From Winogradskyella psychrotolerans RS-3 (GTDB lineage: Bacteria > Bacteroidota > Bacteroidia > Flavobacteriales > Flavobacteriaceae), in assembly GCF_000427335.1 (NCBI RefSeq), contig NZ_ATMR01000094.1:62001-126000 (forward strand): a stretch of DNA of 64,000 bases, written 5' to 3'. Each line of letters begins with the position of its first letter. Position 1 is the first letter of the stretch. The translations under genes were made by a program, and so were the position numbers. A model generated the notes under the pieces. The model ran no database searches. It was given only the letters and a program-made list of their open reading frames with translations, and was not told where the DNA came from. Positions 2 through 40,625 of the stretch are shown in pieces.

Positions 2-526
2 ATAAGAGAAGTCGGAATTTCTAATGAAAAAGCTTGGGGAACTATGCGTTATTTAGAAGAATCTAGGCAGCATAATCTACCAAAGATGATTACGATTCAA
101 AATGCGTATTCACTATTATGTCGACCATTTGAAGGAGATTTGGCAGAAGTAGCGCATAGAGAAAATATAGGCTTATTGGCTTATTCACCAATGGCATTTG
201 GTGTCTTATCTGGGAAATATATAAACGGAACAGCGACAAAGGATGCACGCTTAAATGTGTATTCTCATTTTTCGCGCTATAATAGCGCAAATGCCACGGA
301 AGCAGCGAAACGTTATTTGAAAATTGCAGAAGATAACAATATGTCATTGGCACAAATGTCGCTTGCTTTTGTAAATGAACGTCCTTTTGTAACTAGTAAT
401 ATCATTGGAGCAACGAATCTTAAACAATTAGAAGAAAATATAGATAGTATTAATATCTCGTTATCAGATGAGGTTATGGAAGCTATAAACGCTGTGCATG
501 CTGAGATTCCTAACCCTGCAACATAA
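2..526 (+). CDS. Aldo/keto reductase, C-terminal part (5' end outside window)
   Basis: The frame is open from base 2, so the gene starts before the window; about 174 C-terminal residues are visible. The stretch LLAYSPMAFGVLSGKY is the usual aldo/keto reductase barrel motif, and a later SNIIGATNLKQLEENI matches the NADP(H)-binding end of the family. The family reduces aldehydes and ketones with NADPH in the cytosol; the substrate cannot be told from this part. The catalytic Asp/Tyr/Lys/His region lies outside the window. A strong hairpin terminator follows directly. Confidence 0.9.
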   Translation: MREVGISNEKAWGTMRYLEESRQHNLPKMITIQNAYSLLCRPFEGDLAEVAHRENIGLLAYSPMAFGVLSGKYINGTATKDARLNVYSHFSRYNSANATEAAKRYLKIAEDNNMSLAQMSLAFVNERPFVTSNIIGATNLKQLEENIDSINISLSDEVMEAINAVHAEIPNPAT

Positions 527-541
527 GTTAGTTGCTTCATT

Positions 542-578
542 AAAAAAAAGCACTCATGTTTGATGAGTGCTTTTTTTA
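542..578. terminator. Bidirectional intrinsic terminator
   Basis: Nine-base arms AGCACTCAT and ATGAGTGCT (549-557 and 563-571), flanked by an A-run on the left and a T-run on the right. It lies between two convergent genes and can serve both. Confidence 0.85.
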
Positions 579-582
579 TTGA

Positions 583-1053
583 CTAAATTTTAATCTGTCG
601 ATTAATTTGTTCTTGTAAAGAAATAAATGTTTCTGTTCGAGACACTCCTTTGATACTTTGTATTTCTGAGTTGAGCACATGCATTAAGTGTTCATTGTCC
701 TTAGAGAGAATTTTAATAAAAATAGACCAGTTACCTGTAGTGTAATGGCATTCAATCACCTCAGGGATTTTTTGTAATTGCTTTACAGCTTCAGGATTGC
801 TAATGGCTTTATCGAGATAAACTCCAACAAAAGCCATAGTGGTATAGCCTAAAACTTTCGGGTTAATTATAAATTTTGATCCAGCGATAAGTCCCGATTT
901 TTCAAGTTTTTTTAAACGCTGATGTATGGCAGCACCAGAAATACCAACATTACGAGCAATCTCAAGAATGGGTGTTCTGGCATCTTCCATTAAAGCACGC
1001 AGTATTTTTTTATCTATGCCATCGATGTAAATACCGTTATCGTTAATTTTCAT
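583..1053 (-). CDS. Lrp/AsnC family transcriptional regulator
   Basis: 156 residues, the normal length for the family. Residues about 12-60 form the winged helix-turn-helix (DARTPILEIARNVGISGAA, then a recognition helix with HQRLKKLEKSGLI). Residues about 70-150 form the RAM effector-binding domain, with the GYTTMAFVGVYLD strand and a later CHYTTGNWSIFIKI. Lrp/AsnC proteins are DNA-binding oligomers that respond to amino acids. The gene is convergent with the aldo/keto reductase and close to a saccharopine dehydrogenase-like gene, which might be a target, but this is only inferred from position. Confidence 0.92.
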   Translation of the reverse strand: MKINDNGIYIDGIDKKILRALMEDARTPILEIARNVGISGAAIHQRLKKLEKSGLIAGSKFIINPKVLGYTTMAFVGVYLDKAISNPEAVKQLQKIPEVIECHYTTGNWSIFIKILSKDNEHLMHVLNSEIQSIKGVSRTETFISLQEQINRQIKI

Positions 1054-1124
1054 TGGGATTCTTGTTTATAAATTGAAAGTTAAAAATAACGAATCAAATT
1101 CAATATAATTATGATGATATATAG

Positions 1125-1646
1125 TTAATCTTCGTATTCTAATTCCGTAAAAGAACCGATTAAAACGGTAGTATTAGCATTATCTAAAGTAGTTGCAGAA
1201 ATGTTGAAAGTTCCAGAAATAATTCGAATTCCTGTTTCTGTTGGATGTGTTCTATCTTCAGTAATTGTAACATTTCCTGATGTAGAGTAATAACTAATTT
1301 GAGGATTGGCTTGTCTTATAATACCGTGGGTCACAAAATTATTCGAATCGATATCTCCCATTTCCTTTACTGTACCGGAGCTAAAGCCACCAGTGCCATT
1401 TAAAAATAAAGTGACTTGATTTCCACTAGTATCTGCAATATTAATGCTCATGGTATTACCATTTGTTCCTGAGGAAATTAGGTATGTGCCATCTGTAAAA
1501 TTATAATCGTTAAAAGTGCCTCCGTTAATCGTTGCAACCATTCCTGGGTTTTCATTAAGCGGAGGCGAGTTATCGTTATCATCATCGCTACAAGATGTCA
1601 TACAAAGCAATAAAACGAAAATTTTGAGTAAGTGTAGGGTTTTCAT
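1125..1646 (-). CDS. Lipoprotein of unknown function
   Basis: I place the start at the ATG at 1646, because a lipoprotein signal follows at once (LLKIFVLLLCMTSC, lipobox ending in Cys about residue 19); the open frame continues further upstream but without a signal-like start. After the Cys is an acidic linker (SDDDNDN) typical of Bacteroidota surface lipoproteins. The remaining ~140 residues are rich in G, N, T and beta-strand pattern. It loosely resembles the DUF6252-type lipoproteins of flavobacteria, but I cannot assign a function. Confidence 0.7.
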   Translation of the reverse strand: MKTLHLLKIFVLLLCMTSCSDDDNDNSPPLNENPGMVATINGGTFNDYNFTDGTYLISSGTNGNTMSINIADTSGNQVTLFLNGTGGFSSGTVKEMGDIDSNNFVTHGIIRQANPQISYYSTSGNVTITEDRTHPTETGIRIISGTFNISATTLDNANTTVLIGSFTELEYED

Positions 1647-1757
1647 GTTTTTTAAATTTGGGTACTTATTTGATTTTTGGTTAATTACGGTGTCAATATA
1701 CAATTTTTTAAATAACGGTAATTGGTTAAATGAAATAAGAAAAAAAACATAATCAGA

Positions 1758-3122
1758 TTAAGCATTAAGCGGATTATAACCTAAATAAGGGACTTCATAC
1801 TCTTTAAATATAATATCATAAGATTCTAATTCTTTTAAAATTGGAGTATAAACTTCTTTTGTTATTGGAATTTGAACTCCTGGTGTTTTTATTTTACCAT
1901 TCAGGATAGCTAAAGTCGCAATGGCAACTGGTAAACCTACTGTTTTGGCCATTGCAGTATAGGTTTGGTCTTTTCCAAGGGTAACCATTGTAGAATCAAT
2001 TTGATATTTATTGCCATCAAGTTCGTAGCCAAATTTATGATACATTACGATCATATCTTTGTCGTTTTCGCTTAATGTCCAGCTATCCATTAATATTTTC
2101 TGAAGGATTTGAGCAGGAGTGCCTTTATCAAGTCCTACCATTTTTTTAGGATTAAAAATGTCGAGTTCTAAGAACTTTTCCCAAACAGTATCATCTTGGT
2201 CAATTTTTAAGGCATGTCTAAATTTAAGCTCCACTGAATCCGTTGGACTGTATGGTAAAAAGGAATTTACAAAATCACGGTAACTCATATTGGTACTATC
2301 ATCAATAGTGTAGCTATCATCTGTCATTCCTAATTGTACAAAGACGTTCCATGCTCTACTAAAACCAACACGTCGAATGGTACCTCTATATAATGTTTTG
2401 ATATGATCTAATCCATAAACTTTCTGATATTTTAGAGAATCTCGGTTAGCATAACCTTCAAAACGGCCATAACCTTCAACATCTAAAAATTCGGTACGTC
2501 TAAACAAACGATTGTAGGGTATGTATTTAAATTGGTTCTCCTGCAGAAATTTTGCAGCTCCACCTTGTCCGGCAACAACTACGTTTCTTGGGTTCCATGT
2601 AAATTTATAGTTCCAAAGATTGTTGTCGCTTTCGGGTGCTACTAAACCACCTGTAAACGATTCAAATAAAATCAATTTTCCACCTTTGTCTCTAATACGA
2701 TCAATGACATGCATAGCACTCATATGATCAACGCCAGGATCTACACCAATTTCATTCATAAAGATGAGGTTATTGGCTTTGGCATCTTCGTCTAAGGCTT
2801 GCATTTCTGGACTTACATAAGACGCCGTAACCATATTCTTTTTGTAGGTAATACAATCTTTGGCAACTTCTACATGAAAACGTGCAGGGAGCATTGAGAC
2901 CACTATATCTGCTTTCTTAACAGCAGCAACTCTAGATTCTGCATTAAATACATCTAAATGAATAACGTCTGTATTAGGATGATCGCCAACGAGCTTTTTA
3001 GCGTAGTCTACATTGAGATCTCCAATGGTGATATGAAGCTTTTCGGATTGAGAATTATCGAGTAAATATTTTATAAGATAAGAACAAGATTTTCCTGCTC
3101 CAATGATTAATATGTTTCGCAT
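1758..3122 (-). CDS. Saccharopine dehydrogenase family protein
   Basis: 454 residues. The N-terminus has a Rossmann nucleotide-binding motif (ILIIGAGKSCSYLIKYLL), and the central NEIGVDPGVDHMSAM is the signature of saccharopine dehydrogenase/homospermidine synthase-like proteins. In this family the enzyme oxidises saccharopine to glutamate plus 2-aminoadipate semialdehyde in lysine metabolism, using NAD(P). Length and domain order (Rossmann fold, then C-terminal catalytic half) are complete. It is transcribed toward the lipoprotein gene. The family is certain; the exact substrate is inferred. Confidence 0.85.
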   Translation of the reverse strand: MRNILIIGAGKSCSYLIKYLLDNSQSEKLHITIGDLNVDYAKKLVGDHPNTDVIHLDVFNAESRVAAVKKADIVVSMLPARFHVEVAKDCITYKKNMVTASYVSPEMQALDEDAKANNLIFMNEIGVDPGVDHMSAMHVIDRIRDKGGKLILFESFTGGLVAPESDNNLWNYKFTWNPRNVVVAGQGGAAKFLQENQFKYIPYNRLFRRTEFLDVEGYGRFEGYANRDSLKYQKVYGLDHIKTLYRGTIRRVGFSRAWNVFVQLGMTDDSYTIDDSTNMSYRDFVNSFLPYSPTDSVELKFRHALKIDQDDTVWEKFLELDIFNPKKMVGLDKGTPAQILQKILMDSWTLSENDKDMIVMYHKFGYELDGNKYQIDSTMVTLGKDQTYTAMAKTVGLPVAIATLAILNGKIKTPGVQIPITKEVYTPILKELESYDIIFKEYEVPYLGYNPLNA

Positions 3123-32006: not shown

Positions 32007-35000
32007 ATGTACTTAATATTCGATACTGAAACCACAGGATTACCAAAACGCTGGGATGCACCAATTACAGATACTGATAATTGGCCAAGATGTATTCAGA
32101 TTGCTTGGCAATTGCATGATGGTATGGGAAATTGTATTGAGCACGAAGATTATTTGGTAAAACCAGAAGGCTTTAATATTCCGTATGATGCTGAGAAAAT
32201 TCATGGTATTTCAACTGAATTAGCGCAAGAACAAGGTGTGTCACTTTCTGAAGTTTTAGAGAAATTTAATGCGGCTTTAGCTAAAACAAAATTCGTTGTT
32301 GGTCAGAATGTAAAGTTCGATTTAAATATTATGGGAGCGGAATTTGTACGTGAAAACGTCACAAATCCACTTCAAGAATTACCGGTTTTAGATACCTGTA
32401 CAGAACATACAGCAAGTTTGTGTCAATTGCCTGGTGGACGTTACGGGAAGTTTAAATTGCCAACCCTAACGGAATTACATCAGTACTTATTTAATAAGCC
32501 ATTTTCTGAAGCTCACAATGCCACAGCCGATGTTGAAGCAACCACACGTTGTTTTTTAGAATTAATAAGACGTAAACAATATACCAAAGAGCAGTTAGAT
32601 GTAGAGCCAGAATATTTTGAGAATTTCACGCAAGAAAATCCTGCGGAAGTTCAGCTTATTGGTTTAAAACACATCAACCTTAAGAAGGAAAGTGCTAAAA
32701 TTAACGCACGCCTTCAAAAAGAACAAGCGGTACCTGTAACCATTGATAAAGAAGCGGCATCGCAAATTAAGGATGTCGATTTTGCACATTTACATAACCA
32801 TTCACAGTATTCCATTCTTCAATCTACGATTAGTGTTAAAGATTTAGTGGCTGCAGCTGCTAGAGAAAATATGCCAGCAGTCGCGATGACTGATCACGGA
32901 AATATGATGGGAGCATTTCATTTTGTGACTGCGGTTTCCAATCATAATAAAGGGGTAAAAGCACAGCACAAGCAAGCAGAAGAAGCCGGGTTAGAAAAGA
33001 AAGGCAAAATCATGAAACCAATTATTGGTTGTGAGTTTTTTGTGTGCGAAAATCACGCAGATAAAACCCGAAAAGATAATGGGTATCAAATTGTGTTAAT
33101 GGCCAAGAATAAAAAGGGCTATCACAATTTGGCAAAATTATCATCTGCGGCCTTTACAGATGGTTTTTATTACGTACCAAGAGTTGATAAAAAACTGATT
33201 GAACACTATAAAGAAGATTTAATCTGTTTAACCGGAAACCTTTATGGTGAAGTGCCAAGTAAGGTTTTAAATGTGGGTGAAAATCAGGCGGAAGAAGCCT
33301 TATTGTGGTGGAAAGAAACGTTTCAAGATGATTTATATGTTGAAATAATGCGTCATAACCAAGAGGATGAAAATCGGGTGAATCCGGTATTAATTCAAAT
33401 GGCAAAAAAGCATGATGTTAAATTGGTCGCTACCAATAATACCTATTATGTCGATCAAGAAAATGCCAATGCACACGATATTTTATTATGTGTAAAAGAT
33501 GGTGAAAAACAGGCGACGCCAATTGGTCGTGGTCGTGGTTATCGTTACGGTTTACCAAATCAAGAATATTACTTTAAGTCTTCAGAAGAAATGAAAGCAC
33601 TCTTTAGAGATGTGCCAGAAGCGATTGTGAATATCGGCGACGTAGTCGATAAGATTGAGCCTTACGAATTAGCTAGAGATGTATTATTACCTGCTTTCGA
33701 TATTCCTGAAGAATTTAAATTTGAAGAAGATTTAGCAGATAACGGTAAACGTGGTGAAAATGCATTTTTAAGACATTTAACTTACAAAGGTGCCAAAATA
33801 CGTTACGGTGAGATTACACCAGCCATTGAGGAGCGTCTCGATTTTGAGTTAAGCGTTATTGAAAAAACAGGATATCCAGGTTATTTCTTAATTGTAGAAG
33901 ATTTTATTCGCGAAGCCAGAAAAATGGATGTTTCCGTTGGTCCTGGTCGTGGATCTGCAGCAGGTTCGGTAGTGGCCTATTGTTTGTGGATTACCAATAT
34001 TGATCCTATTAAGTACGATTTACTTTTTGAGCGTTTCTTAAATCCAGATCGTGTAAGTATGCCCGATATTGATATCGATTTTGATGATGAAGGTCGTGGT
34101 CGTGTAATGCAATATGTAATTGATAAATATGGTTCTAACCAAGTAGCGCAGATTATTACTTACGGAACCATGGCTGCAAAATCTTCAATTAGAGATACCG
34201 CCAGAGTTTTAGATTTACCGTTAAATGAAGCCGATCATATTGCGAAGTTAATTCCGTTGATGTCTAAATTAGGCAAGATTTTTGGGCTTTCGGAAAAGGA
34301 GTTAGCAAGTAAATTTAGAGCTGAAGATTTAGAGAAAATTAATGAATTACTCAATATTTCTGATGGTGACGATTTACAAGCCGAAACCATCAACCAAGCA
34401 CGGATTTTAGAAGGTTCGGTTCGTAACACAGGGATTCACGCTTGTGGTGTAATCATCACACCAGGAGATATTACCAATTATGTGCCTGTTGCGCTGGCTA
34501 AAGATTCCGATTTATATGTTACCCAATTTGATAACTCTGTTGTTGAGGATGCAGGGTTGTTGAAAATGGATTTCTTGGGATTAAAACGTTAACCTTAATT
34601 AAGGATACCGTAAAACTTGTAAAAGCCAAGCACGATATTTTACTTGATCCTGATAGTTTTCCACTCGATGATGTGAAAACATATGAGTTATTCCAACGCG
34701 GCGAAACAGTTGGTGTGTTTCAGTATGAATCGCCAGGCATGCAAAAACACATGAAGAATCTGAAACCTACGGTTTTTGATGATTTAATTGCCATGAACGC
34801 CCTGTATCGCCCTGGTCCAATGGAATATATTCCAAGTTTCATTGCGCGTAAACATGGTGATGAAGAGATTGTGTACGATTTACCAGAAATGGAAGAGTAC
34901 CTTAAGGAAACTTACGGAATTACGGTTTACCAAGAGCAAGTAATGCTACTGTCTCAAAAGTTGGCTGACTTTACCAAAGGTGAAGCCGATGTCTTGAGAA

Positions 35001-36385
35001 AAGCGATGGGTAAAAAGCAGATTGCGGTTTTGGATAAAATGAAACCAAAATTCATTGAACAAGCAAGTGCAAAAGGTTTAGACGCTAAAAAGTTAGAAAA
35101 AATTTGGAAGGATTGGGAAGCCTTTGCAAGTTACGCCTTTAACAAATCGCACTCTACATGTTACGCATGGATTGCTTACCAAACAGCCTATTTAAAAGCG
35201 CATTACCCAGCAGAATATATGGCTGCTGTATTATCTAATAATATGAATGATATTAAATCCATTACCTTCTTTATGGAAGAATGTAAACGGATGCGATTAC
35301 CAGTTTTAGGACCCGATGTTAATGAAAGTTTTTACAAGTTTTCAGTAAATAAAGATAATGCTGTTCGTTTCGGAATGGGAGCGATAAAAGGTGTTGGTCA
35401 TGGAGCTGTTCAGACGATTGTAGAAAACAGAAAAGAAGATGGACACTATAAATCTATCTTCGATTTTGCCAAACGTATTGATTTGCGTGCTGCCAATAAA
35501 AGAGCTTTTGAAGGGCTGGCGAATGCAGGTGGTTTTGATTGTTGGGCAGATACACACCGAGCGCAATACTTTGCAGACGAAGGTGATGGTGTCAGCTTTT
35601 TAGAAAAAGCAGTTAAGTATGGAGCCAAGCATCAGGAAAATGAAAACTCGGCGCAAGTCAGTTTATTTGGGGCCGCTAGTGATGTTCAGATCGCAGAACC
35701 TATTGTGCCTCCATGTGAAGATTGGGGAACGATGGAGAAATTATCGCGAGAACGCGAAGTGGTTGGGATTTATATTTCTGGTCATCCACTAGATGATTTT
35801 AATATTGAAATGAAAACTTTCTGCAACGGAGTGGTGGAGGATTTTAATGATTTGGAAACCATCGTAAATAAGGAAGTTACTTTTGGTGGCGTTGTTACCG
35901 ATGTGCAACATCGTGTGAGTAAACAAGGAAAAGGTTGGGCTATTTTTACGATTGAAGATTATACCGATAGTTTTGAGTTTCGAATTTTTGGTGAAGATTA
36001 TTTAAAGTTTAGACACTTTTTTGTGATTAACTCTTTTGTCTATGTCAGAGCCTTTGTGCGCGAAGGTTGGGTAAACAGAGACACAGGTAAAAAAGGAGAT
36101 CCAAGGATTCAATTTAATAGTTTCCAGTTGTTGCATGATGTGATGGATACCTATGCTAAAAAGTTATCCATTCAATTAAACATTAAAGATTTAGAAAGGG
36201 AAACAGTTTCTGTGTTGTATGACTTAATAAAATTCCACGAAGGCACTCAAACCTTAAATTTTGTGGTCTATGATAATGCTGAAAAGATAAAAGTACAGAT
36301 GCCAAGTCGAAAAAATAAAGTTAAGATTTCGCAACAACTCTTAAATAGTTTGAAGGAGCATGATATAATTTATAAGTTGAATTAG
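32007..36385 (+). CDS. dnaE: DNA polymerase III alpha subunit with N-terminal exonuclease, frameshifted
   Basis: The replicative polymerase, about 1460 residues. Residues 1-180 are a DEDD proofreading exonuclease (FDTETTG with Asp 6 and Glu 8; VGQNVKFD; HNATADVEA). The PHP domain follows (HLHNHSQYS, His 261/263/265), then the palm: GPGRGSAAGS, PDIDIDFDD (Asp 687, 689), and KMDFLGLK (third catalytic Asp 855). One A is missing in the A4 run 34583-34586 immediately after KMDFLGL; inserting it joins TLTLIKDTVKLVKAKHD, FQYESPGMQKH and the C-terminal OB fold (VTFGGVVTDVQHRV). The gene cannot really be split, so I expect a sequence error. Confidence 0.95.
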
Positions 36386-36415
36386 ATGTTTAGAACTTGA
36401 CTTGCGTATATTTAT

Positions 36416-36441
36416 GTGTTATGCGCAATAAGGATAAACAA
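36416..36441. repeat. Right end of a cassette-type intergenic element (E0)
   Basis: GTGTTATGCGC at 36416-36426, then AATAAGGATAAACAA just before the ATG at 36447. Its first eleven bases are the exact inverse of GCGCATAACAC at 38278-38288, on the other side of the gene. The left part of this element, next to dnaE, is not clearly recognisable. Confidence 0.65.
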
Positions 36442-36446
36442 ATAGA

Positions 36447-37394
36447 ATGACAACAACTAGAAAATATTATGAATCCTTAATTGACGCTTTCATTCGAATT
36501 AACAAATCGAACGTAAACGAACCTAAAGAATACTTTGAGGCTAAATTAGAAATAAGTAATTTAATTAATAGAATACTAAAATTTGATTTATTTCCATTAA
36601 CATTTTCTAATGATTTTTTTGATTTGTTAGAATCAGAATCAATAAAGGATTTTGATAATCAGAAAATCAAATTGATAAATGAATTGCATTTTGAATTAAT
36701 TGAATGTCTTTGGACAACTCGTTTGCGCTTTGGTGGAGAATTAATCCAATATATATCAAAAATTAAAATTGCTTTATTAAATCTAAATATTAAGGAATTA
36801 GAATTATTTGAAAAAAATAAAACTGAACCGACTCATAATTATTTCCCTGAAGTTTACAATTTTAAAAACAACAAGGATAAAACTCAAAGAATCAAAGAAA
36901 TTAGAGCCTTTTCGAAAACTGGTCCTAAAAAGGAAAAATTAATCATAAAGAAAAAAGATTACACTAAGTTAGAAAACAAAATTGTTACTGATATAAGTAA
37001 TTATAGAAGTTATATAATGGAACATTATCCATCTTTATCCGACAATTTTTCTTTTTGCAATAAAAAGGTTTTAGCTTATATTACAGAGGCAATGTCATCT
37101 GATATTTTTGAATTTCGAATTCACTCATATATGACAACTAATGGTGATAATTCAGTAAAACTTGACCATCAATTTTATGATTTTTATCCTTCCTATTTTC
37201 ACAACCTTGAAGAAATAATAGACAAATTTGCAGGAGCACATATTACAAGTCTAAAAAAAGAGGATTTTAGTTTTAGAAATCCATTTTCAATAAACAACAT
37301 TCATCGTGAATTAATTGAAATTTTCATTCAAAACTCTAGTGGAAATGGAATTGAAGAATTTACTACATTCCTATTAAAGTGCAAAGGATACTAA
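36447..37394 (+). CDS. Protein of unknown function, probable N-terminal part of a nuclease-domain protein
   Basis: 315 residues ending in a TAA at 37392-37394. The sequence is rich in Lys, Asn and Ile, more A+T-rich than the neighbours, and has no recognised domain. The frame stays open, in register, for another 880 bases beyond the stop, with no ATG, GTG or TTG until 37737. That open stretch therefore probably belongs to the same gene, with the TAA a nonsense mutation or base error. The alternative is a separate gene starting at the ATG at 37399 with an indel in the A8 run 37447-37454. It is placed as the first gene of a cassette-like series. Confidence 0.6.
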   Translation: MTTTRKYYESLIDAFIRINKSNVNEPKEYFEAKLEISNLINRILKFDLFPLTFSNDFFDLLESESIKDFDNQKIKLINELHFELIECLWTTRLRFGGELIQYISKIKIALLNLNIKELELFEKNKTEPTHNYFPEVYNFKNNKDKTQRIKEIRAFSKTGPKKEKLIIKKKDYTKLENKIVTDISNYRSYIMEHYPSLSDNFSFCNKKVLAYITEAMSSDIFEFRIHSYMTTNGDNSVKLDHQFYDFYPSYFHNLEEIIDKFAGAHITSLKKEDFSFRNPFSINNIHRELIEIFIQNSSGNGIEEFTTFLLKCKGY

Positions 37395-38276
37395 ATCAAT
37401 GAAGACTTACATAAGGATTTTAACTATGATATTTCTGCGTCAAAAGAAAAAAAATCATTTTCCTTCGAGATATTTCACCATAAATCTAGGAGTATCTCAA
37501 AAATTAAGGCTAGAATTACGAACATAAGTAAAACATCATCAGAATTAATACCTTCTTTTATATTCACTTCATTTCCCGGAGAAGAAATTTATAAAATATT
37601 AAAAGAAGAAAATATTAAAACAATTATTCTACAAGACCTAATTAGGGAACATTTTGAGTTACAAAATAGTCAAGTTATTCATTGGTATATTAAATCTAAA
37701 ATATCCAATCTTAGAATTAAATCAAACAGTTTTGAATTGAAATTTGAGGGAGAAAACCTAATTGCAAAACTTGAAAAATGTCTTCCTGGCGAAAAAAACT
37801 GGTCAGAATATGAATCTATAGGTGTAAATATTTTTAGGTTTTTATTTAAAGACAACTTCAAAAAATATTTGAGCGAGGAACAAATAGAGAATAACTTAAA
37901 AAACCATAGAAGAGATTTATTAGTGAATAATAATCCCTCTGATTTAACTTCTTTTTGGTCAGACACTAAAAGGAATTATAATTGTTCGGCAATTATAATT
38001 GATTTTAAAAATTATTCAGGCAAACTTAATTCAACAAATTTTTTCAGCGTTTCGAAATACACCAAAAAAAATGTTGGGGATTTTGCTATTGTATTTTCAA
38101 GAAAAGGAATTGACAAAACAGCAAAAATTGAACAATCTGAATTATTTGGAAATGGAAAACTGTTGCTTGAATTTAGCGATAGTGAATTGATTGAAATGAT
38201 AAGAGAAAAAATAATAGGAAAAGACCCAATTGACAGATTGGAATCTAAGAAATTTGAATTAGTAAAAAAATATTAA
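37395..38276 (+). pseudogene. PD-(D/E)XK nuclease-like C-terminal part, separated by an in-frame stop
   Basis: The reading frame of the previous gene continues from 37395 to the TAA at 38276 with no stop, but its first usable start is the TTG at 37737 (179 residues). The conserved nuclease signature lies in that half: KNHRRDLLVNNN gives the Asp of the PD motif and AIIIDFKNYSGKL the Asp-x-Lys, followed by FFSVSKYTKKNVGDFAIVFS, as in restriction-endonuclease-like folds. With the upstream 315 residues a protein of about 600 residues would be formed. It probably cuts DNA or RNA, maybe in defence; there is no methyltransferase partner here. Confidence 0.6.
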
Positions 38277-38277
38277 A

Positions 38278-38425
38278 GCGCATAACACTTTATATAATTT
38301 ATTGCTAGTTCTAGCCAACTTACAAACATTCCTACAGAATATTCTATCTGAGATTTATTTAATAAATTAGTTGCTTAACCACGTCACTAGCTATACACAA
38401 AATAGTTAGTTACAATTTGGAACAA
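38278..38425. repeat. Cassette-type intergenic element (EA)
   Basis: About 148 bases from GCGCATAACAC (1 base after the nuclease stop) to GTTAGTTACAATTTGGAACAA just before the next start codon. It matches element EB (39456-39575) along its length: ATAATT.ATTGCT.AGT near the left, AACTT..AACATT.CT.....AATATTCT in the centre, GA.TTATTTA then, and a GTGTTA-like right end. It contains imperfect palindromes. This is the arrangement of attC-like sites in integron cassettes. Confidence 0.65.
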
Positions 38426-38430
38426 TACGC

Positions 38431-39453
38431 ATGGGAATATTTGATATATTTAAGAAGAAGACAACCGACTCAACATTTCCAGAAAATGAATTAGAGAAAA
38501 TTTTCTTACGAGCTACACAAGAAATAGCTGCTCAAAAGGAATTTTATCAAAAATTATTATGGAGTCAATTGTTTGTTTTGACCGACGAACATATGGATTC
38601 GGAAGAAGGAATTCAAACATTGGAAGAGGATACAATTGTGCGATTTGTAACGTTTGAAGAAGGACAAATTCCAATTTTTACTTCTACAAATAGAATTTTT
38701 GATAAAGGAGTAATAAAAGAAGAAGTTCCATATGTGAGTCTTAAAGGCCAGGACTTATTTCGTATTGCGAAAGGAGCAACATTTATTCTAAATCCTAATT
38801 CAAACTATGTAAAGGAATTAATCCCAGAGGAAATTGAAAACCTCATGGATGGAACACTCTATGACAAGATTGATGAACAGGAAATAGAGGATATTAAATT
38901 TCAAGAGTTTAATGAAATATTTGAACGAGCAGGAAATAAACAAGAAGGATTGATTTTGCTTGATGGATACCATATTAAAAAATTAAATAAATCAGAAAAA
39001 TCAAGACTAGAAGAATCTGTAATAGAATTTGAAAAATGTCTTGCCATAATTCCTGAACATTGGCAAAGTATGATATTAATGTCCAAGGCGCTTCAACGAT
39101 TAGAAAGACATTCTGAAGCTCTTGAACATTTAGAAAATGCTTGTAAAATTGAATTGGAAAATCATATCATTGCTATGGAGGCCTCTTTGGAAGCTATGCA
39201 CTTGAAAGACATTGATAAAGCATTGTATTATTCTGTAGAATCTCTAAGACGAAAACCCAATGATTATGCATTGATGGGCAATCACGCAATGAATTTACTT
39301 GTAGCCAATAAAGACCAAGAAGCTAAAAATACTATCGACAATGCGATTAAAATAAAGTCTAATGACGCTGTAAATAAAAACATCAGATTGATTATAAATG
39401 GTGTTATTTCTGGTAAACGAAAAAGACCAACTTTTGAAGACGCAATTAAATAA
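38431..39453 (+). CDS. SseB-like N-terminal domain plus tetratricopeptide repeats
   Basis: 340 residues. Residues about 18-140 resemble the SseB N-terminal domain (FLRATQEIAAQKEFYQKLLWSQLFVL, IPIFTSTNRIFD). Residues about 190-330 carry TPR-like helix pairs (HWQSMILMSKALQRLERHSEALEHL, KALYYSVESLRRKPNDYALMGNHA). TPRs imply a protein-binding role. The start follows element EA closely and the stop is followed at once by element EB, so it looks like a complete single-gene cassette. Confidence 0.7.
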   Translation: MGIFDIFKKKTTDSTFPENELEKIFLRATQEIAAQKEFYQKLLWSQLFVLTDEHMDSEEGIQTLEEDTIVRFVTFEEGQIPIFTSTNRIFDKGVIKEEVPYVSLKGQDLFRIAKGATFILNPNSNYVKELIPEEIENLMDGTLYDKIDEQEIEDIKFQEFNEIFERAGNKQEGLILLDGYHIKKLNKSEKSRLEESVIEFEKCLAIIPEHWQSMILMSKALQRLERHSEALEHLENACKIELENHIIAMEASLEAMHLKDIDKALYYSVESLRRKPNDYALMGNHAMNLLVANKDQEAKNTIDNAIKIKSNDAVNKNIRLIINGVISGKRKRPTFEDAIK

Positions 39454-39455
39454 TA

Positions 39456-39575
39456 ACGCTATCTAACACCTTGAATAATTAATTGCTTAGTCAATGTCAA
39501 CTTGCTAACATTGCTGTAAAATATTCTCACTATGACTTATTTATAAATGAAGTGTTTATACTATAGGTAAAAACC
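39456..39575. repeat. Cassette-type intergenic element (EB)
   Basis: Begins ACGCTATCTAACACC straight after the stop of the SseB gene, has AACTTGCTAACATTGCTGTAAAATATTCT in the centre, and ends GTGTTTATACTATAGGTAAA (39552-39571). Aligns with EA and E0; length about 120 bases. Confidence 0.6.
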
Positions 39576-39594: not shown

Positions 39595-39948
39595 ATGTTG
39601 TTCGAAAATCCATTATTTTTAATTCCATTCAGTAGCGGACTCATCTTTTGTGTTGTAGGACTATTTATGTATAAATTTCCACCAAAGAAGATTAACGGAA
39701 TCTATGGTTATAGGACAGCAAATTCTATGAAAAATCAAGTGAGATGGGATTTTGCACAACTATATTCATCTAAACAAATGATAAAATACGGACTTCTACT
39801 TTCAGTATTTGGATTAGTTGGTTTGGTGTACGAGCCATCTGAAAGTATTTCTACTATGTTAGGCTTAGGTTTAATGATTTTAATGGTAGTTTTATTAATC
39901 GTTAAAGTCGAGAAAAAAATCAAAGAAGAATTTAAAGATACTGAATAA
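39595..39948 (+). CDS. SdpI family membrane protein
   Basis: 117 residues with three hydrophobic segments and the FPPKKINGIYGYRTANSMKN motif of SdpI-type immunity proteins (signal-peptide-like N-terminus FLIPFSSGLIFCVVGLF). Members protect cells from the SdpC toxin in Bacillus, while many others have unknown targets. It follows element EB by 19 bases, so it may be the third cassette of the series, and precedes the TetR gene. Confidence 0.78.
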   Translation: MLFENPLFLIPFSSGLIFCVVGLFMYKFPPKKINGIYGYRTANSMKNQVRWDFAQLYSSKQMIKYGLLLSVFGLVGLVYEPSESISTMLGLGLMILMVVLLIVKVEKKIKEEFKDTE

Positions 39949-39955
39949 ATAAAAT

Positions 39956-39973
39956 AGACAGACTTGTCTGTTT
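39956..39973. promoter_or_regulatory. TetR operator O1
   Basis: ACAGAC-TT-GTCTGT perfect palindrome (39958-39971), with one mismatch in the outer arms. It covers the upstream part of the promoter of the TetR gene. The same sequence is found at O2. Confidence 0.75.
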
Positions 39974-39987
39974 ATAAAATTATTTTA

Positions 39988-40563: not shown

Positions 40564-40581
40564 AAAAATTTGAACAAACAA

Positions 40582-40599
40582 AGACAGACTTGTCTGTCT
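40582..40599. promoter_or_regulatory. TetR operator O2
   Basis: AGACAGACTTGTCTGTCT, a perfect 18-bp palindrome, 27 bases before the SDR start; 14 central bases are identical to O1. Confidence 0.78.
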
Positions 40600-40625
40600 A
40601 ATTTTAATAATTTAATAAAAATATA

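Follow-up and report, generated by a model that had tools for sequence, protein, structure and literature searches.

Chromosomal IntI integrons, such as the Vibrio superintegron, combine an integrase gene, an adjoining attI site and an array of one-gene cassettes in one orientation; in each site of the array, R and L arms pair below a variable top, and the ends of the cassettes are complementary. In the best-known integrons the integrase gene runs opposite to the cassettes, and the consensus of the canonical R' box is GTTRRRY. According to published work, the acquisition of the I2 helix was an innovation of the integron integrase toward single-strand recombination (PMC7790495), the role of the I2 domain in IntI is treated in PMC9668308, PMC7790495 and PMC8138268, and a chicken-and-egg problem has been posed, namely how selection for I2 could have preceded attC, or selection for attC could have preceded I2 (PMC4792948). 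Conservation of the IntI insertion is incomplete in an integron-like subgroup of tyrosine recombinases (PMC8138268). Bacteroidota are counted among the integron-bearing phyla (PMC8618304), and for Bacteroidetes the IntegronFinder 2.0 paper names earlier In0 elements and one complete integron, in Salinibacter (PMC9024848). Here we describe a site in the genome of Winogradskyella psychrotolerans RS-3 (219 contigs, 99.76% complete), in a window of 64,000 nucleotides from contig NZ_ATMR01000094.1 (C94; positions 62,001 to 126,000 of the forward strand). Between the dnaE stop (36385) and a TetR gene, the window carries two attC-like elements, EA (core 38284..38407, + strand) and EB (39465..39575, + strand), each 3' of a gene, and then an SdpI gene. 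We are highly confident that this site is an outlying, partly decayed integron-type array belonging to a family whose intact platform, with a recombinase that lacks I2, lies on contig C199 of the same genome. Like clusters of attC sites lacking integron integrases (CALIN), the window site has two attC-like elements and no integrase nearby; it is unlike them in that its attC-like family differs and that the genome's platform integrase, encoded on another contig, is no IntI.

The element family and its stem

An earlier reading made from the letters of the window alone (the sequence-only reading) had proposed integron-like cassettes separated by related elements that begin close to stop codons. 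EA and EB have several named sequence blocks in common, agree at 74% over about 86 columns (E 4e-8), and begin near the stop codons at 38274-38276 and 39451-39453, respectively. The further copies for which it suggested a search were found in the host genome and in other flavobacteria. Used as queries against the host genome, EA and EB listed 40 and 41 places, the last ones at chance level, and the copies cluster on small contigs with a spacing of a few hundred to some 1500 bases. A covariance model gave 61 matches on 18 contigs at E<=0.01; EA is one of them, scoring 61.4 bits under model R1, and EB, which is degraded, is not. No Rfam family matched the elements, and phage records searched with EA returned chance-level matches only. 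The R' arm reads GTTR in 452 of 456 GTT starts and GTTRRRY in only 26 of the 456, and so does not pass as an IntI-class R' box.

The stem of these elements covaries. In an alignment of 30 of 31 selected elements, 38 stem cells had changed on both sides, compared with 10.5 in shuffled alignments, and none of 500 shuffles reached 38. We then aligned 61 diverse elements with a mean column identity of 49% (58 of 60 listed references plus three added; 63 had been selected and two left out), which gave 172 double-changed stem cells against 47.8 in shuffles, again with none of 500 reaching the observed value. Pairing held in 95.1% of the stem cells and in at most 44.3% when the partner was slid by 1-3 columns, and a single stem pair occurred as GC in 24 elements, AU in 21 and CG in 15. 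Like attC sites, the elements are imperfect palindromes in which R and L arms pair and structure is conserved despite divergence in sequence. A palindrome kept by sequence constraint alone was considered and rejected on the strength of the compensatory changes. For two intact elements, three folds yielded z values of -4.7, -3.6 and -5.4, and a central hairpin is discernible in many sequences. Two stem positions hold conserved A.C mismatches (59 and 51 of the 61 elements), which become T.G wobbles on the bottom strand, and the bottom strand is the better fold in 194 of 206 elements.

Complementarity of cassette ends

If these arrays are built from integron cassettes, the variable letters at the start of a cassette should mirror, in inverted form, the letters at the end of that same cassette, and not those within one element. 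This prediction was tested on elements that were matched nearly end to end. In the host genome, 16 of 25 adjacent pairs matched at 6-7 of 7 letters, as against 2 of 37 comparisons within elements, and the observed pair mean was reached in none of 10000 shuffles; 34 relatives gave 47 of 68 pairs versus 6 of 103 within elements. The largest test, which also demanded exact AAC and GTT ends, a score of at least 15, a spacing of 150-3000 and removal of duplicates, covered all loci and found matches at 6 or more of 7 letters in 264 of 303 pairs (shuffles: mean 11.5, maximum 24 in 2000 runs). In the corresponding controls, which still contain duplicate pairs, 27 of 422 matched within an element and 12 of 281 with the next-but-one element. 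Cassettes therefore match their own ends, and the unit consists of a gene and an element closed through these ends. The 295 gaps between neighbouring elements in the host genome and its relatives have a median of 637 bp, and in the 260 of them with an open reading frame (ORF) of at least 50 codons the longest ORF has the direction of the array in 244 cases and the opposite one in 16. Mostly one-gene cassettes of the same orientation with complementary ends, as known from the IntI class, are thus what these arrays contain.

The recombinase platform

As the sequence-only reading had stated, there is no integrase in the window; every tyrosine-recombinase match in the genome lies off C94. A dedicated recombinase stands beside the intact array on C199, where the order is a 375-aa tyrosine recombinase (P0001), an attI-like palindrome, a cassette, an attC-like site and a further cassette, all on the strand of the integrase. 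The cassettes are mostly of one gene, each ending in an attC-like site of ~125 nt. Behind the integrase stop we found the palindrome GGATATA..TATATCC, followed by GTTGTGCAAC, the inverse of GTTGCACAAC in the first element. A first-cassette junction of this kind (at least 9 of 10 letters) follows the integrase in 51 of 63 loci, compared with a mean of 3.1 and a maximum of 12 in 500 shuffles of the arms, and points to an attI adjoining the integrase gene as in IntI-class integrons. A paralogue of P0001 (61%) sits at the extreme end of contig C15, a position where no array could show, with conjugation-type genes upstream of it by our reading of the ORFs. The closest integrase among the matches listed in the named collection, 96% identical, is from Winogradskyella pacifica.

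To place these arrays, we scanned the best 80 of at least 465 confirmed integrase loci, nearly all from Flavobacteriaceae or related organisms by their titles; a few genomes occur twice, under a handle and a name, and the loci are not all independent. The own-genome element model found 117 elements downstream of the integrase on the same strand and none on the opposite strand (368 kb), as against 5 and none upstream (745 kb). Contigs end within 3 kb downstream of the integrase in 39 of 80 loci versus 4 of 80 upstream, and array repeats seem to break the assemblies. Where at least 2 kb of downstream sequence was present, this model found one or more elements in 31 of 49 loci, and a widened model, trained on the same loci on which it was run, found them in 40, some of them weak; for 34 loci from relatives the two models gave 26 and 31, respectively. 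In 78 of the 80 loci a small gene with a cysteine-rich start is found upstream of the integrase, in divergent orientation and at most 800 bases away. This partner gene, zinc-ribbon-like at L072:7464-7862 and L084:9218-9499, matched no NCBIfam model, and its Pfam matching stayed under the cut-off (a treble-clef model at E 0.096); it is a candidate regulator or accessory factor. Near the platform of the first of these loci lies a tandem repeat coding for NHQPSTI units (L072:6021-6329).

The search for a recombinase of the Xer/integron type, suggested with the sequence-only reading, thus found a tyrosine recombinase beside an intact array, and it is not a canonical IntI. The catalytic residues R K H R H Y of tyrosine recombinases are retained in 33 of 33 family members. 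Against the IntI model TIGR02249 the recombinase matches in two pieces around the IntI-specific stretch, with a score below cut-off, and in our alignment the region of the I2 insert measures 25-26 aa in all 33 members versus 67 aa in 21 of 21 IntI proteins, indicating that the additional I2 domain near patch III is absent. Recombinases of the family exceed the cut-off of 220 for the XerA-type model NF040815, with 235.6 and 227 bits. In a tree, 24 members formed one clade (100/99) and 21 IntI sequences another (98/81); with long branches among the Xer rows and an outlier (own_L064), we use only the separateness of the family (F1) and IntI and not the root. No IntI scored over cut-off in the host genome. 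Among 395 genomes of the phylum as drawn by the database, 105 had an IntI over cut-off, and none of the 106 IntI positives belongs to the recombinase family described here, with at least 20 family-bearing genomes in the sample.

A structure model of the W. pacifica homologue (mean predicted local distance difference test, pLDDT, 81.6; predicted template modelling score, pTM, 0.49) aligned best to XerA (Z 23.8, root-mean-square deviation [rmsd] 13.5, 252 aligned) and IntI (Z 21.2, rmsd 4.2, 257 aligned). The recombinase also has an extra N-terminal domain of ~100 aa, which was predicted alone at pLDDT 79.6. A Foldseek search with this domain gave no significant match (best E 0.18 in PDB and 0.005 in viral models), and a profile search of PDB sequences gave nothing credible. 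On a second look, six XPB entries stood on top (Z 6.0-6.6, rmsd 1.9-2.6, 54-59 aligned), followed by an unrelated row at Z 5.8, and the HARP domain of SMARCAL1 aligned at Z 4.2 (rmsd 1.9, 49 aligned); of the 12 members scanned, one matched Pfam HARP weakly (E 7.8e-4), its 19.4 bits falling short of the cut-off of 25. HARP/XPB-type domains recognise forked or structured DNA, so the modelled similarity offers a possible lead to how a folded site might be read without I2.

Exchange of cassettes among relatives

The sequence-only reading had proposed comparing the locus behind dnaE between close relatives, and this comparison was informative. We took the dnaE loci of 30 of the 40 genus genomes matched, the host included, and found the sequence 3' of dnaE to be widely different among them. 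Genomes G435 and G399 pass directly from dnaE to TetR with no cassette. Relative G409 has the same junction (TTTATGTGTT) followed by other cassettes and then the same EB and SdpI gene; one of these cassettes carries a gene of 281 aa with matching ends (GTTGTACAT / ATGTACAAC), and a second carries a ParE toxin gene preceded by a small gene that we read as its antitoxin. Genome G401 has cassette 2 and the SdpI gene without cassette 1. Replacement of cassettes is also seen at the platform, where C199 and W. pacifica are 88-94% identical up to attI and the cassettes beyond (3.1 and 2.2 kb) are different or reordered. As an observation apart from these cassettes, G409 (locus L183) has a Bro-N gene inserted upstream of the cassettes and flanked on either side by a copy of ~130 nt from the dnaE 3' end; the end of dnaE possibly serves as a second site of integration that is unrelated to the first.

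The cargo is diverse. Among 94 hand-chosen cassette ORFs, of which three belong to the window and the others to listed gap references, we counted 65 Pfam families, each in at most three ORFs, with ParE, AbiEii, RhuM and KAP among them; single ORFs also match candidate defence models of PADLOC. The exchangeable defence repertoire that had been suggested for the window finds slight backing in these single ORFs.

Distribution across Bacteroidia

Homologues of the recombinase at E<=1e-60 occur in 185 of 397 genomes of the host family. At the level of the class, elements were matched in 102 of 295 genomes and integrases in 118 of 295; treating both draws as the same 295 genomes, 65 had both, 37 elements only, 53 integrases only and 140 neither (Fisher p 2.5e-9). 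For 13 integrases hand-picked from the matches listed, because their contigs also carry listed elements, those of the listed elements that are within 20 kb all lie downstream on the same strand. A Persicobacter plasmid (L181) carries a 42.7% homologue, behind which lie a direct duplication of 2.5 kb and several repeats of ~130 bp; it has one weak element match only and may be another array outside Flavobacteriaceae. Our literature searches, whose coverage excluded bioRxiv and most subscription papers, returned no description of such a system.

Comparison with described systems

With chromosomal IntI integrons the system shares the integrase gene, the adjoining attI, the array of one-gene cassettes in one orientation, the sites with paired arms and a variable top, and the complementary cassette ends, as well as a cassette of toxin-antitoxin type (in G409) and cassette content that varies between relatives. 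It differs from them in an integrase without I2, in the extra N-terminal domain and the conserved divergent partner gene, in the conserved A.C mismatches of the consensus stem, and in an R' arm that is GTTR and rarely GTTRRRY; the integrase is also oriented as the cassettes are. The recombinase passes the NCBI model NF040815 ('site-specific tyrosine recombinase/integron integrase'); the portions available of the model's record and of the survey of the 'integron-like' subgroup of tyrosine recombinases do not link I2-less members to attC arrays. With XerA and XerCD and their dif modules it has the catalytic core in common, to which the present system adds a 125-nt structured element, arrays and the N-terminal domain. 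A TnpF-type recombinase encoded next to tet(X3) on a plasmid of Acinetobacter (L292) is 51.5% identical to residues 146-374 of the family's recombinase; unlike the latter, its annotated gene (221 aa) has no N-terminal domain. It is possibly a trace of Bacteroidetes origin.

Proposed mechanism and alternative explanations

We propose that attC x attC exchange, close to the GTT of the R' arm, lets the recombinase release a cassette in circular form, and that the excised cassette would be inserted into attI or some other site. Once circular, the cassette would have its start joined to its own end, the arms pairing to complete the hairpin that the recombinase reads. The substrate would be one DNA strand in its folded form, probably the bottom one, and the likely catalyst is the 375-aa family recombinase, whose N-terminal domain, perhaps with the small divergent partner protein, may replace the I2 helix as the reader of the folded site. 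The arrays, the element family, the attI junction, the complementary ends, the compensatory stem and the different cassettes at one junction are established as far as sequence comparison can take them. In its workings the system is like an integron, but it lacks one of the features that define IntI integrons; it is an I2-less variant of the integron, not a member of that class. A broader proposal, for which we see the case as evenly balanced, is that it is a second, independent invention of the integron, in which folded-attC arrays across Bacteroidia would be served by an I2-less recombinase reading the fold through its HARP/XPB-like N-terminal domain and the zinc-ribbon-like partner instead of through I2 and bulged bases.

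The following results weigh against an integron-type system. All of the evidence is comparative, and no excision circles were seen. The family stem covaries and intact elements fold, but the folding suggested as a check gave a different answer for EA, which folds no better than its shuffles on either strand (z -0.46 and 0.36), and the start of cassette 2 agrees with its own end at only 4 of 7 variable letters. In the alignment, a column count of the central hairpin reached 55% paired at best, with gaps misaligning it, and the bottom-strand advantage is partly one of base composition, as shuffles of 100 elements give 1.3 of the 2.5 kcal/mol (about half). The junction test for attI is failed by 12 of 63 loci, and even the widened model finds no element in three of the 34 loci from relatives (two of these three lie at contig ends) and in 9 of the 49 with at least 2 kb downstream. 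In the class, integrases at E<=1e-60 were not matched in 37 of the 102 genomes with elements, nor elements in 53 of the 118 with integrases; therefore some homologues do other work or the thresholds miss some cases.

The most serious competitor, though in our judgement an unlikely one, is a double-strand exchange of the Xer/dif kind, in which the half-sites are ordinary double-stranded core sites used by a Xer-type recombinase with no folded strand. It would fit a recombinase that has no I2 and passes the XerA-type model, an attI that is a palindrome, and a structure model of the W. pacifica homologue that aligns with XerA as well as with IntI. But double-strand contacts need no co-change of letters at the two ends of a cassette, or of letters ~100 nt apart in an element, and the conserved A.C mismatches fit a strand-specific fold. 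Far less probable is a dispersal like that of miniature inverted-repeat transposable elements (MITE) or repetitive extragenic palindromes (REP), by which non-autonomous repeats settle behind genes without forming a cassette unit. Many copies are indeed scattered, some alone on a contig, but the cassette-end test contradicts such a dispersal, as the unit with matching ends is gene plus element, and the arrays begin at one recombinase, on one strand, with different cassettes at one junction. We find it equally hard to credit a canonical integron whose IntI lies on a stretch missing from the assembly. The division into 219 contigs leaves room for such a loss, but an assembly of this completeness has no IntI over cut-off, the I2-less recombinase adjoins such arrays in one-contig genomes (G168, G335 and G040), and the IntI positives of the phylum include none of the family despite the family-bearing genomes sampled.

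Features of the dnaE locus

The window site itself is an outlying, partly decayed array of integron-type cassettes. The spacer between dnaE and cassette 1 (36386..36417, + strand), conserved up to the junction in G409, is likely a worn recombination site. Cassette 1 starts at 36418..36429 (+) with an R'-like GTT, a variable arm and AAT; its first nine letters, GTTATGCGC (36418-36426), are the exact inverse of GCGCATAAC at its R''-like end (38278..38286, +), an inversion around the first gene that had been noticed in the sequence-only reading and is present. The inverted pair I24 spans the same ends (16 nt, 88%). That reading had counted three elements; EA and EB stand, and the one placed at 36416 is only this cassette start, half a site. 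EA is a worn, decaying copy, with 4 of 13 stem positions unpaired (TC TA AC TA AT TA TG TA TT TA TC GT CG). Cassette 2 starts at 38405..38416 (+; GTTAGTTACAAT). In EB the 3' half is degraded, and the model match extends to about 39558.

The gene of cassette 1 (36447..38276, +) is a frame of 610 codons with a lone in-frame TAA at 37392-37394, for which a pseudogene, an error or readthrough are the options. It has no Pfam family, and the nuclease-like identity given to it in the sequence-only reading is left without support there; a homologue search of 299 genomes returned, besides the gene itself, one weak partial match. The other two gene assignments agree with Pfam: the gene of cassette 2 (38431..39453, +) encodes an SseB N-terminal domain with TPR, and of 148 other genomes one carries a homologue of it (49% identity); the SdpI-family gene (39595..39948, +), missing with the whole array in G435 and G399 and kept in G409 and G401, is probably the gene of the last cassette. 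Upstream, dnaE (32007-36385) is split into two frames (32007-34592 and 34673-36385), and in the 39 other genus genomes matched it is one open frame of 1462-1494 codons; either a frameshift or an assembly error accounts for the split. Near-identical palindromes (D11, I7) around AGACAGACTTGTCTGT at 39951-39974 and 40577-40600 flank the TetR gene and are likely TetR operators.

Implications

The integron-like array read from the window has gained support from its copies in the genome, structured sites, replacement at the locus and a dedicated recombinase, and it is larger than first described. The chicken-and-egg question of I2 and attC becomes testable with attC-like arrays that are widespread and whose recombinase lacks I2. 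Surveys that demand IntI miss these arrays, which our covariance model matches in the 102 class genomes counted above, and with them a large exchangeable gene pool that has so far been out of view.

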